A stretch of 64,000 nucleotides of DNA, taken from NCBI RefSeq assembly GCF_024227435.1, contig NZ_CP100445.1, positions 1,981,369 to 2,045,368 of the forward strand, given 5' to 3'. The notes below the pieces were generated by a model. It saw nothing but the letters and a program-made list of their open reading frames with translations, ran no database searches and had not been told where the DNA came from. This document shows, piece after piece, positions 15,090 to 21,059 of the stretch. Source of the stretch: Natrinema caseinilyticum. Its GTDB lineage: Archaea; Halobacteriota; Halobacteria; Halobacteriales; Natrialbaceae. Numbering within the stretch: the stretch's first letter is position 1; every line of letters begins with the position of its first letter. Made by a program: the position numbers and the translations under genes.

Positions 15090-16505
15090 ATGAAAGAGTA
15101 CCAGACTATCACGGAAATCAGCGGTCCGCTGGTGTTCGCCGAGGTCGACGAGCCCGTTGGCTACGACGAAATCGTCGAGATCGAGACGCCACAGGGCGAC
15201 ACCCTGCGCGGACAGGTACTGGAATCGAGCGAGGGGATCGTCTCGATCCAGGTGTTCGAGGGCACGGGCGGGATCGACCGCAACGCCTCCGTTCGCTTCC
15301 TGGGCGAGACGATGAAGATGCCCGTCACCGAGGATCTGCTCGGACGGGTCCTGGACGGGTCCGGGAACCCGATCGACGGCGGCCCGGAGATCGTCCCCGA
15401 CGAGCGCCGCGACATCGTCGGCGAAGCGATCAACCCCTTCTCGCGCGAATACCCCGAGGAGTTCATCCAGACCGGCGTCTCCGCCATCGACGGCATGAAC
15501 ACGCTGGTCCGGGGCCAGAAGCTGCCGATCTTCTCCGGATCGGGACTGCCCCACAACGAACTCGCACTCCAGATCGCCCGTCAGGCGACGGTGCCGGAAG
15601 AAGAGGAAGGCGAGGGCGAAGGCTCCGAGTTCGCGGTCATCTTCGGCGCGATGGGAATCACCGCCGAAGAGGCAAACGAGTTCATGGACGACTTCGAGCG
15701 CACCGGCGCGCTCGAGCGCTCGGTCGTCTTCATGAACCTCGCGGACGACCCCGCGGTCGAACGGCAGGTCACGCCGCGACTCGCGTTGACGACCGCCGAG
15801 TACCTGGCCTTCGAGGAGGGCTACCACGTCCTGGTCATTCTGACGGACATGACCAACTACTGTGAGGCGCTGCGCGAGATCGGTGCCGCACGCGAGGAGG
15901 TTCCGGGACGTCGTGGCTACCCCGGGTACATGTACACCGACCTGGCGCAGCTCTACGAGCGCGCGGGTCGAATCGAGGGCAAGGAGGGGTCGGTCACGCA
16001 GATTCCGATCCTGACGATGCCCGGCGACGACGACACCCACCCGATTCCGGACCTGACCGGCTACATCACCGAGGGTCAGATCATGATGGATCGGGACCTG
16101 AACAGTCAGGGGATCGAACCGCCGATCAACGTCCTGCCCAGCCTCTCGCGGCTGATGGACGACGGGATCGGCGAGGGCCTGACCCGCGAAGACCACGGCG
16201 ACGTCTCCGACCAGATGTACGCCGCCTACGCGGAGGGTGAGGACCTGCGCGACCTCGTGAACATCGTCGGCCGCGAGGCGCTGTCCGAACGCGACAACAA
16301 GTTCCTCGACTTCGCCGACCGCTTCGAAGCGGAGTTCGTCCAGCAGGGCTACGACACCAACCGCTCGATCGAGCAGACGCTCGAGGTCGGCTGGGACCTG
16401 CTGTCTGCGCTCCCGAAAACGGAGCTCAACCGGATCGACGAGGACCTCATCGAAGAGCACTACCGCGAAGACGAGACGGAATCCGTCGAAGTCGAAGCCG
16501 AGTAA
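15090..16505 (+). CDS. atpB: A-type ATP synthase regulatory subunit B
   Basis: A 471-residue non-catalytic head subunit. It shares the catalytic fold but lacks a normal P-loop ([13 protein letters not shown] replaces it), as in the family. The start [14 protein letters not shown] begins three bases after the atpA stop; the frame is open upstream but that part lies inside atpA. It is the last subunit gene before the island; atpD follows only 5.5 kb later. Confidence 0.97.
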
Positions 16506-16608
16506 TCACACGACTCGAGGGATCCGAGATTTTCCTTCTGTTCGTTCGAAGTGCTCCGACGAACTCGTCGTTCATGCCTTACACCAACTCACCGTCGCTG
16601 ACCGCCCG

Positions 16609-16712
16609 GTGGACTGTCAGCTCGTGCCGGGTTCTTCGACTAGATGCGCATCCACTACGGCGACGACGAGGCGGTCGTCGCCACCACAGGCGAACGGCTC
16701 ACGCACACCCGG
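16609..16712 (+). pseudogene. Decayed copy of the 5' end of the acyl-CoA ligase gene
   Basis: The segment aligns with the beginning of the ligase gene at 19437-21059. An identical 36-base core, ending gtcgtcgccaccac, occurs at 16652-16687 and 19493-19528. Similarity extends from ctcgtgccgg on the left to about 16712 on the right, with one base deleted before the core, so the frame is broken. Upstream it keeps a possible GTG start (GTG-GAC-TGT-CAG). The simplest reading is that the ligase gene once followed atpB directly and that the island was inserted near its start, leaving this stub. Confidence 0.7.
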
Positions 16713-16761
16713 TGTACTCTTGCGCACATTTAACTAAATCAGATGTTCCTGCAACAAAATG

Positions 16762-16768
16762 CTTATAA
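16762..16768 (+). promoter_or_regulatory. TATA box of the 55-residue membrane peptide gene
   Basis: cttataa lies 25-27 bases before the ATG at 16791, the leaderless spacing. The surrounding sequence is AT-rich compared with the atp genes. Confidence 0.5.
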
Positions 16769-16790
16769 CCAATGGTGAGGATGTGTGAAT

Positions 16791-16958
16791 ATGGTTGAGA
16801 GGATACAGATTGGCATTACGATTGCATTCATCATTATCGCGATTGCATTATTTTTCTGGGGTCAATCTACAGAGATCAATAGCAAAGCATTATATGCTCT
16901 GCTAATCGGTGTCGGGGTTATCATTCCAACAATTATTACGTCAATCTTGTCTGATTGA
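16791..16958 (+). CDS. Small two-helix membrane peptide (55 residues)
   Basis: The product starts MVERIQIGITIAFIIIAIAL, giving a first membrane helix, then a short polar loop (WGQSTEINSK), then a second helix (ALYALLIGVGVIIPTIITSI) and ends LSD. Codon use is much richer in A and T than in the atp genes, in line with the rest of the island. A TATA box stands at leaderless distance. It converges on the broken bPH2 gene and lies 1.6 kb from the halocin-like gene. It could be an immunity or accessory peptide (inference from place and size). No family recognised. Confidence 0.6.
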   Translation: MVERIQIGITIAFIIIAIALFFWGQSTEINSKALYALLIGVGVIIPTIITSILSD

Positions 16959-16988
16959 TCAAACTGTGGTCCTTGGTCTCTCGGTACC

Positions 16989-18534
16989 TTATCTCTCTAC
17001 TCGTTCTTTCAGACCGTACCGTTGACGCTGTGGATTCGACAGTCGGTCCTGTAAGGAAGACCGACACTCGTTGTGAATACATCGTGCATCATGTGGATGT
17101 ACATCGATCACAGTCGGTGACCGATCGAATACCGCCGTCGCGCTTGCTGTATCGAAAATAAAACTTGCCAATTTCCATCGCCTTTGAAACACTGTTTGTT
17201 TGACCGACCCGGACTGGAAACGAAAATAGGGAACGATTCGAGTAGTGCGGTTCCAAAACCCGCTTCGAACCACGAAACAGTGGTCACCAATATGGTATCC
17301 AAGATTAGCCCATTTAACGTGTGCAGCGACAGGGGCCAGCGGAAGCAATAGTAACGGCCCGTACCAATAGTGGAAACCTGTCGTGACTGTTGCGGCTATA
17401 GCGACTACGAAAACGATGCCGATAGAAATCGTGTATTGCATAGCGTACCTCGTTCAAGCACGCTTTGGGGGGCGTTCGAACGCTGGGTCTTCAAATTCGA
17501 ATAGACCGTGTGCAAAACGCCACACCCGTGACCCGTGAGCGAGGGGAATAATTAATTCGCGACCGTGACGCTCAGCATTGTCGGTTCCCCCGGCACCAGC
17601 AGTTTCTACTGATAGCTTCGCCATTCCAAGGAACCTAACGGGGACAGACTCCGAAATTCGGAGTGTTTGTATTTTTTCGTATGGAACCGTTCCGCTTCGG
17701 GTGCTTATCATCCCGCGTCTATAGACGAGTGAATCGTTCAGTCGTCCGAGAGCGTGGCCGTAATATTGTAAGCCGGTGAGAACGGCGCTACATGCCCAGA
17801 GCCCGATGAAAGCAAGCGGTCCCCAGACGGGAGTCAGTGCGAAGACACCTTCAGGATTGATTGCATCGAGAGCAAGTTGATCCGGCCCGCCGAGGGGTTG
17901 TGCGAGTTGAAGAAGTTCCGGTCCGAATAAATCATTGATAGCCGGGAGACTTATTGTGGCAAGTAAGACCGTCCCCTGGTAAAAATGACGTCAGGCAGAG
18001 GATAAGAAACTCTGATCGATTGAGTGAAAATAGATGTGTTGGTGACTGACTTGCCCCGTCACTCTCGGTGGCTTCGTCTCGAATAGTCTGCTGTAGTCGT
18101 TCCGCCTCTCCGATGGAGATACATCCGAGGACGACTTCTGACGTGGTCTCGCCCGCCGTCTCAATCATGACAGTTGCAACTCCGAGAAGACGGGATACCG
18201 CTCCCCGTTGAACGTGAATATTCTGCACGCGCGTATACGGTATTTCTCGTGTCGTTCTGGCGAGAACACCGGAATTGATGACGAGAGAGTGGCTCCGATC
18301 TTCGTATTTGAAACAGAGGTACCGAGCGATTCCGTATATCGGGCCGATGAAGACGAGAACGAACGATAAATCAAGCAAAACTGCAACCCGCTCCATTGGA
18401 AACAGAATAGTCAAAAGACCAGTTACAAAGATGGGTGCCCCGAGTCCAAGTAACATGCCTTTGGAAAATAATTGAACGGCGCTAAATATGTGCAACCGTT
18501 TCGCGGTATGGCGATCGCTTTGTTCAGGAATCAT
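16989..18534 (-). pseudogene. Broken three-domain bPH2 membrane protein (YdbT-like)
   Basis: Three frames read in order on the minus strand together give one protein of about 510 residues with three membrane/bPH2 modules. The domains begin near SHSLVINSGVLARTTREIPY, LVYRRGMISTRSGTVPYEKI and FVVRSGFWNRTTRIVPYFRF. The first break is a one-base excess in a run of five A (17981-17985); removing it restores the frame into the second domain. The second is an in-frame TGA at 17454-17456 (ERPPKRA-stop-TRYAMQYTI), most simply a CGA to TGA change. The bPH2 family is PF03703. The gene follows the halocin-like gene by 63 bases on the same strand, so it probably belonged to that locus. Confidence 0.8.
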
Positions 18535-18597
18535 TCAAACATTACACTATTTACTCATGTTAGATTTGGCCTCAAATAAATGCGTTAGTGTTATATT

Positions 18598-19050
18598 TCA
18601 GCAGAGATTTACTTCCTCTTCACACACACTATCAGCGAGCGATCCAGTGCAGCCGTACGTTGATGCAAATGCGCAGGTTACGTTCACGATGGTGAGGCAC
18701 CCGACACCTCCTATGCCGCCACTAATAATACCGAAGAAACCGCAGGCGAACCCACCTGCTGCACCACAAACGTTTTGACAGATGAGAGGAACTGCCCACT
18801 TGCACTCGTCACGAGGACCATTACCAACTCCTTGGATAGTCACCTGGCCCGAACCTCTCCGATTTTCCACTGATTCCATCGTTTCTCGGATTTCTTTCTC
18901 AGGAGTAACGACCCTCTTCGTAAGATCGGATTCAGTGGACTGTGTTGAAAGCCTGTCGGAGGATGAACCATCATCTACTGCATCGTACACCGCAAGACGA
19001 TGCTCAGCATCGATGCTGGAATTCTCACTTTCATCTCTTCGTAGTGACAT
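18598..19050 (-). CDS. Halocin C8-like antimicrobial peptide precursor
   Basis: A 150-residue protein. Residues 1-80 are polar and charged; residues 83-150 hold nine cysteines (83, 91, 95, 103, 118, 126, 134, 143, 150). The intervals 8,4,8,15,8,8,9,7 compare with 8,4,8,14,8,9,9,6 in the last nine cysteines of mature halocin C8 as I remember it. Both contain an AAGGF.CG..GI core and end in cysteine. The first of the ten halocin cysteines is absent. Halocin C8 is made as a longer Tat-exported precursor whose N-terminal part gives immunity. Here no Tat signal is seen and an in-frame TAA lies 12 bases before the ATG, so the N-terminal part may have been lost. Confidence 0.85.
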   Translation of the reverse strand: MSLRRDESENSSIDAEHRLAVYDAVDDGSSSDRLSTQSTESDLTKRVVTPEKEIRETMESVENRRGSGQVTIQGVGNGPRDECKWAVPLICQNVCGAAGGFACGFFGIISGGIGGVGCLTIVNVTCAFASTYGCTGSLADSVCEEEVNLC

Positions 19051-19098
19051 CCTCGCCCGCCGTTAACAGCGGGATTCTCTCGGTGCTTAAAGATCGTG
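19046..19098 (-). mobile_element. IS200/IS605-like terminal hairpin remnant
   Basis: On the minus strand, gagagaatcccgctgttaac and the following cggcgggcgaggatgtcac form an imperfect hairpin (arms 19056-19060 and 19069-19073, TTAA loop). It resembles, from memory, the right end that follows tnpB genes in haloarchaeal IS200/IS605 elements. No tnpB-coding sequence was recognised upstream, so this would be a leftover end. It abuts the ATG of the halocin-like gene. Confidence 0.4.
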
Positions 19099-19436
19099 TG
19101 ACGGTTCACAGAATTGTAACGCGGATGCCTCGGGATCGTCCGTAAATTGGATATTTCAGTGAGCGGGCGAGACCGAAGCTCTTGCTGTCATCGAGAATCT
19201 TCGATTTTCGAACGACTTGACTCCGAGTCTGTTGACATACAATAGTAGTTGTTGAAACGATTCACTCACCGTTAGCAATGAAGCGGCCAGCAACGACTCG
19301 CCCGCCGCGAATGCGCGAGCAGGGTGTGCACTGACTTCAACGACTCCTGTAACTCTGCTCACTCCAAAACATTCCCTTCCGTGATCGTTCTCCACGTGTG
19401 ACAGATGAAAACTATCGTATGTACTGCCCGCAAAGA

Positions 19437-21059
19437 ATGGCATGCATGCACAAACCACTACTCGTACCGGAGTTCTTAGACCGGGCGCGGACCCACTACG
19501 GCGACGACGAGGCGGTCGTCGCCACCACGGGAGAACGATTCACGTACGACGAACTCGGCGAGCGCGCCGACCGGTTCTCGGCGGCGCTCGAGCAACGCGG
19601 CATCGAAAAAGGCGACCGAGTCGCTGTCCTCGACCCGAACACGCACTACCACCTCGAGGCGGCCTACGGGATCATGCAACTGGGCGCGATTCACACGCCG
19701 CTGAACTATCGCTTGACACCGAACGATTTCGAGTACATCCTCTCGGACGCGGGCGTCGACGCGATTTACGCGGATCACGAGTACGCCGACCGGATCGAGG
19801 AGATTCGCGACGAGGTGCCGACGGAGACGTTCATCACGAACGACTCGAGCGCCCTGGAGGGTGACTGGGAACGTTTCGACGAGGTTCTCGAGGACGCGGG
19901 AACGGAGTACGACCGGCCGGCGATGAGCGAGGACGAAATCATCACGATCAACTACACCTCGGGGACGACGGGCGATCCGAAGGGCGTCTGTCGCACCCAC
20001 CGCTGCGAGACGATCCACGCCTACCTGCTGGTCGCCCACCAGGAGTTGACCGACGACGACGTCTACCTGTGGACGTTGCCGATGTTCCACGCGAACGGCT
20101 GGGGCCACATCTTCGCGGTGACCGGAATCGGCGCGAAACACGTCTGCACGCGCGGCGTGGATGCCGGGGACATCTTCGAAGCGGTGCGGTCGGAGGACGT
20201 CTCGTACATGTGCGGTGCCCCGACGGTGCTGAACATGTTGGTCGAATATTACGAAACGAACGAACCCGAGACGACCGGCGACGCGGACGTTCGACTGGCG
20301 ACCGCCGGCAGCGCGCCGCCGGAAGCCACGATCAGAACCGTCGAAGACGAGTTCGGCTGGTACCTGAAACACGTCTACGGCGCGACCGAAACGGGGCCGC
20401 TGATCACGACCTCCGACGCGCGGCGACGGTTCGACGACGACAGCGACGACCGGTTTCGGATCAAGAAACGGCAGGGGCTGTCCTTCCTCGGCACCGAGAT
20501 CCGGGTCGTCGACGAGGACGGAACCGACGTCCCGCGTGACGACGAGACCCTCGGCGAAGTCGTCGTCCGAGGCAACCAGATCATGGAGAAATACTGGGAG
20601 AAGCCCGACGCGACCGAGGAGGCCTTTACCGACCGCGTCGAGGGCTACTACCACACGGGCGACCTCGCGACGATCGACGAGAACGGCTTGATCGCCATTC
20701 AGGACCGCAAGAAAGACATCATCATCTCGGGCGGCGAGAACATCTCGAGCATCGAACTCGAGGACGCGCTGTTCGACCACCCGGACGTGGCGGACGTCGC
20801 GGTGATTCCGGCCCCGAGCGACGAGTGGGGCGAGACGCCGAAAGCGTTCGTCGTCCCCGGGTCCGGCGACCCCGACGATCCGGGGGTGACCGAGGGCGAC
20901 CTCGAGGCGTTCACGCGCGAAAAGTTAGCGGGCTACAAGGTCGTCCACAGGATCGAGTTCGTCGAGGAACTGCCGACGACCGCGACGGGGAAGGTCCAGA
21001 AGTACGAACTCCGAAAGGAGGAGTGGGAGGACGAAGAGCGAATGGTCGGCCAGGGATAA
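19437..21059 (+). CDS. AMP-forming acyl-CoA synthetase / ligase
   Basis: A 540-residue member of the adenylate-forming family. INYTSGTTGDPKGVCRTHRC is the ATP-binding P-loop motif, YGATETGPLITT the adenylate motif, YYHTGDLATIDENG the hinge Asp region, and TATGKVQK carries the C-terminal catalytic lysine. It activates a carboxylic acid (probably a fatty or aromatic acid) to its CoA thioester; the substrate is unknown. The first residues (MACMHK) do not look like the family's usual start and probably derive from the island junction. Conserved sequence begins at PLLVPEFLDRARTHYGDDEA. ATGs at 19398 and 19446 are also possible. Confidence 0.88.
   Translation: MACMHKPLLVPEFLDRARTHYGDDEAVVATTGERFTYDELGERADRFSAALEQRGIEKGDRVAVLDPNTHYHLEAAYGIMQLGAIHTPLNYRLTPNDFEYILSDAGVDAIYADHEYADRIEEIRDEVPTETFITNDSSALEGDWERFDEVLEDAGTEYDRPAMSEDEIITINYTSGTTGDPKGVCRTHRCETIHAYLLVAHQELTDDDVYLWTLPMFHANGWGHIFAVTGIGAKHVCTRGVDAGDIFEAVRSEDVSYMCGAPTVLNMLVEYYETNEPETTGDADVRLATAGSAPPEATIRTVEDEFGWYLKHVYGATETGPLITTSDARRRFDDDSDDRFRIKKRQGLSFLGTEIRVVDEDGTDVPRDDETLGEVVVRGNQIMEKYWEKPDATEEAFTDRVEGYYHTGDLATIDENGLIAIQDRKKDIIISGGENISSIELEDALFDHPDVADVAVIPAPSDEWGETPKAFVVPGSGDPDDPGVTEGDLEAFTREKLAGYKVVHRIEFVEELPTTATGKVQKYELRKEEWEDEERMVGQG

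Follow-up and report, generated by a model that had tools for sequence, protein, structure and literature searches.

Halocin C8 is made from a 283 aa precursor (ProC8) that carries a Tat signal and a HalI part (PMC11509114), and that article, citing Sun 2005 and Mei 2008, places the immunity activity in the N-terminal HalI part. A second group of described systems bears on the locus presented here. Export of the leaderless bacteriocin enterocin DD14 is reported to need YdbS/YdbT-like proteins (PMC8657885), and proteins with PH domains are common in the gene clusters of leaderless bacteriocins (PMC11580447).

The window, by which we mean the whole 64,000 nt stretch of a Natrinema caseinilyticum contig (NZ_CP100445.1) that was analyzed, holds a 150 aa ORF related to halocin C8 beside a broken gene for a YdbT-like protein (Table 1). 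We consider this ORF, with a probability of about 80%, to be a 5′-truncated and most likely non-functional remnant of a halocin C8-like precursor gene, carried together with the YdbT-like gene in a horizontally acquired insertion. An earlier reading, made from the letters of the window without database searches (the sequence-only reading), had called it an antimicrobial gene; as a working gene it is unsupported.

Table 1. Features of the halocin C8-like locus (window coordinates)
Feature	Position	Strand	Basis or remark
Halocin C8-like ORF, 150 aa	18598..19050	minus	TIGR04449 (46.6 bits) and alignment to full-length precursors
Broken YdbT-like gene, three bPH_2 domains	16989..18534	minus	PF03703 in all three pieces
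Small membrane protein ORF, 55 aa, two TM	16791..16958	plus	Convergent with the YdbT-like gene
Inserted segment	16713..19384		49.3% GC against 63.4% GC for the window; relatives lack it at the atpB–ligase junction
Remnant of acyl-CoA ligase 5′ end	16620..16712	plus	84% to 19461-19547; left insertion edge
Intact acyl-CoA ligase gene	19398..21059	plus	Right insertion border
Hairpin element GAGAATCCCGCTGTTAACGGCGGGCGAGGATGTCA, 52 bp	19043..19094	minus	Resembles haloarchaeal TnpB/IS200-IS605 right end
MITE-like repeat, ~120 bp	19236..19355		Terminal inverted repeats ATAGTAGTCGTTGAAA...TTTCAACGACTACTAT

The halocin C8-like ORF and its missing N-terminal half

The ORF starts with an ATG and runs for 150 codons with no internal stop. 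Residues ~18–82 correspond to the end of a precursor pro-region, and residues 82–150 form a halocin C8-like domain with nine of the ten family cysteines. This domain matches the NCBIfam profile TIGR04449 (halocin_C8_dom) with 46.6 bits (cut-off 24, E=5e-12) over positions 3–69 of 69, i.e., nearly the whole profile, and it is the single match in the whole 4.77-Mb genome. Because of this E-value and the score relative to the cut-off, the cysteine pattern is not one of chance. The family assignment made by the sequence-only reading is thus backed by a significant profile match, while Pfam gave no family, and PHROGs nothing, at E<=1.

Recomputing the cysteine intervals returned 8,4,8,15,8,8,9,7, as had been claimed, and the series given there for halocin C8 (8,4,8,14,8,9,9,6) is exactly that of the Natrinema altunense AJ2 precursor (L123/L211), which we take, by its mature sequence, to be HalC8/ProC8. 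The nine cysteines are in register, the AAGGFxCG core is retained, and identity to full precursors is 37–44% with the same cysteine register. The first of the ten is absent, which had also been seen correctly; it is present in 55 of the 61 loci examined and lacking in six, so the TIGR04449 profile does not require it. Membership of a regular nine-cysteine subfamily was considered as the reason for its absence and rejected, as the nearest relatives all have CxxC.

Nothing closely related to the entire ORF, as DNA or as protein, was found in plasmids, phages or a first scan of genome contigs, and no viral contig was found to carry an alignment of the halocin C8-like domain. Searching solved structures with the sequence gave no meaningful match, and Rfam families were absent from 16500–19500. 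An AlphaFold model has fair confidence for the C-terminal ~70 residues only (four helices, block pLDDT about 67–86) and drew nothing from the PDB by Foldseek; it takes no part in the argument.

The best match to the whole ORF lies within a 284 aa frame of Haloterrigena salina (G357; residues 18–145, 38% identity), and residues 18–82 align with full-length precursors at the end of their pro-region. The ORF is therefore not a short halocin with a leader of its own, and what had been described as a leader of about 80 residues is the end of the precursor pro-region. By these alignments, it is the C-terminal half of an ordinary precursor of ~290 aa. The aligned precursors have Tat-type starts and a region of more than 100 residues, both absent from the ORF. 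A profile search of the 4.77-Mb genome for this N-terminus (Tat signal and HalI-type region) did not find it (best E 0.49), nor was a hidden N-terminus found in other frames upstream of the ORF. The first 80 residues contain no RRxxL motif with a hydrophobic stretch, and no hydrophobic or Tat segment; by a simple motif scan, an RRxxL-type motif is present in 48 of the 61 loci, the window ORF not among them. The sequence-only reading had reported the Tat signal and an immunity-type N-terminal domain as missing, and both absences hold, that of the HalI-type region for the genome as well as the ORF. Against the whole-protein precursor model NF040679 the ORF scores 23.7 bits (cut-off 200, a value that full-length C8 precursors also fail to reach). 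A longer alignment with L144, extending up to ~19365, was not credible and was set aside; it passes through three stops and a repeat.

Two other N-terminally truncated halocin C8-like copies were observed, L038 (genome G092) and L036 (genome G192), and in neither is the missing part found upstream. The L038 copy is 88% identical to the HalC8 precursor.

The insertion and the broken YdbT-like gene

The ORF lies between atpB and atpD on the opposite strand, and its earlier placement inside the ATP synthase region was right; the site, however, is that of an insertion with no relation to ATP synthase. Nowhere in the window is the GC content lower than in this 2.7-kb insertion, which holds both the halocin ORF and the YdbT-like gene. 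Here, atpB and the acyl-CoA ligase gene are 2.9 kb apart. In a relative with a 98% identical AtpB (G396) the site is empty, the ligase gene following atpB after about 117 bp, and several other relatives have the same gene order with <1 kb between. A direct repeat of the ligase 5′ end flanks the insertion. The segment is most simply explained as a foreign insertion that has partly decayed.

The hairpin element supplies the ATG of the ORF and sits at the truncation point. It recurs within this genome (G000), and most of the family's genomes have copies as well. Elsewhere in this genome (L002), a tnpB gene is followed by a similar sequence that ends GGGGAGGATGTCA, hence the resemblance to a TnpB-element end given in Table 1; beside the hairpin at the ORF, tnpB is no longer present. 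The MITE-like repeat stands farther upstream of the ORF, has 16–17-bp terminal inverted repeats and about 25 copies in the genome, and is also found in other genomes of the family.

The YdbT-like gene starts 64 bp downstream of the halocin ORF on the same strand and is broken into three pieces (18534–17932, 17711–17454 and 17441–16989); the lesions are a frameshift at about 17970 and, near 17455, an in-frame TGA. By tblastn, the pieces are colinear with an intact 531-aa homologue adjoining the H. salina halocin gene, and Pfam finds all three bPH_2 domains, spread over the pieces and not in one protein. An assembly error might account for the frameshift; the TGA would remain even then. In a tree, the gene lies on a long branch near one of the core YdbT groups.

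Relic or working gene

A relic is favored because the pro-region breaks off at what resembles the end of a mobile element, there is no secretion signal, the cysteine count is odd, and the neighboring gene is broken twice. The sequence-only reading had left the choice between a divergent short halocin and a truncated relic; the relic is preferred. Counting against a relic, the frame is open over 150 codons and preserves both the cysteine register and the AAGGFxCG core. Given two lesions in the 1.5-kb neighboring gene, however, the chance that a 453-bp frame stays intact under plain decay is about 56%, and the open frame is therefore weak evidence.

The events leading to such a relic may be pictured as follows. 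The precursor gene and the YdbT-like gene would have arrived together in a low-GC segment that entered the genome between atpB and the gene for the acyl-CoA ligase. If they behave like the published halocin C8, the intact relatives would produce a Tat-exported precursor of ~290 aa that is cleaved extracellularly, with the N-terminal HalI part shielding the producer and the cysteine-rich C-terminal peptide attacking other haloarchaea; the YdbT-like partner may help in export or immunity, like the YdbS/YdbT-like proteins of leaderless bacteriocins. In the window, the N-terminal half of the precursor was lost at the TnpB-element-like end, which now gives the start codon, and any translated product would probably stay in the cytoplasm. 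Of this account, the homology, the point of truncation, the absent N-terminus, the damaged neighbor and the insertion are seen in the sequences; that function was lost, that the segment came by horizontal transfer and what the YdbT-like protein does are inferred.

It is improbable that the ORF is a working short halocin that dispenses with a Tat leader and is exported in the style of a leaderless bacteriocin by the adjacent YdbT-like membrane protein. Such a peptide would suit the open frame, the conserved core, the YdbT-like genes adjoining 6 of 61 halocin C8-like genes, and the need of leaderless enterocin DD14 for YdbS/YdbT-like proteins in export (PMC8657885), but residues 18–82 are leftover pro-region, hence the ORF is not leaderless, one of the ten cysteines is gone, the YdbT-like gene of the window is broken, and those precursors that have an intact YdbT neighbor are full length. 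Less probable still, and in our view very unlikely, is a domesticated cytoplasmic fragment that is translated and has a new function as a decoy or in immunity or regulation: truncated copies do occur in three genomes, but their truncation points and contexts differ, and the HalI part, to which PMC11509114 assigns halocin C8 immunity, is missing from the window ORF. An unrelated cysteine-rich metal-binding protein or a chance ORF, for which nothing speaks beyond the richness in cysteines, can be dismissed on a TIGR04449 match at twice the cut-off, the empty Pfam and PHROGs searches, and the identity and shared cysteine register with precursors.

Possible membrane-protein partners and comparison with described systems

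Taken by itself, the truncated gene, a relic from an antimicrobial family already known, is of little weight; the association with membrane proteins is the part of the findings most worth following up. The halocin C8-like domain was detected in 44 of 391 sampled genomes of the class, mostly in open frames of 250–400 aa, and 61 loci, the window included, were surveyed in fetched stretches of mostly 8–10 kb. In six of these (L040, L041, L044, L050, L052 and the window) the stretch includes a YdbT-like gene, where 0.4–1.0 would be expected by chance at 3–8 bPH_2 gene loci per genome (an estimated density, and the loci are partly non-independent). The six belong to at least three YdbT lineages in the tree, and some of the loci also have a YdbS-like gene. 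After dereplication, 46 halocin C8-like genes (L036–L055, L120–L159) remained, and 25 of them are followed within 130 bp by a small ORF with at least two hydrophobic segments, in 19 cases on the strand of the halocin gene; among 177 other long ORFs of the halocin loci, 14 are so followed (Fisher p about 3e-11; the hydropathy test was crude, but identical in the control). These small multi-TM ORFs are candidate immunity or export genes.

Tentatively, we propose that halocin C8-like antimicrobials use YdbS/YdbT-like PH-domain proteins or, elsewhere, a small downstream multi-TM protein as dedicated partners for export or immunity, an idea that we hold to be possible but somewhat less than even in probability. 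Among the papers searched, none mentions both halocin and pleckstrin. If true, the principle would be convergent or shared with leaderless bacteriocins and go beyond the published single-gene (HalI) immunity, and the locus in the window would be an instance of it in decay. The pattern opens a testable view of archaeal antimicrobial immunity and export; the model published for these has one self-protecting gene.

Compared with ProC8, the window ORF shares the cysteine register (8,4,8,14-15,8,8-9,9,6-7), the AAGGFxCG core and the C-terminal cysteine. It differs in length (150 aa against 283), in having neither Tat signal nor HalI part, and in having nine cysteines where the halocin C8 peptide has ten; the neighbors also differ, there being no regulator/permease cluster beside the window ORF. 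The best sequence matches (36–38%) are in Haloterrigena salina JCM 13891 (L041) and Natrinema thermotolerans DSM 11552 (L044), where, as in the window, a gene of the YdbT-like family adjoins the halocin C8-like gene. Unlike in the window, their precursors have the N-terminal region and a C-terminal VDIPYF extension, their YdbT-like genes are intact, and the two genes are convergent and not in tandem. The YdbT proteins of these two halocin pairs are 87% identical, compared with ~60% for the core copies, which suggests that this pair, shared by two genera, was recently transferred. The locus in the window suggests that halocin C8-like loci move among haloarchaea and decay. Leaderless bacteriocins come from Gram-positive bacteria, and their peptides lack a C8 domain; the likeness to them is one of gene neighborhood, the operons of enterocin DD14 (DdE/DdF), lacticin Q (LnqC/D) and aureocin A53 (Orf7/8) having, as here, a peptide gene that adjoins one for a bacterial PH2-domain membrane protein.
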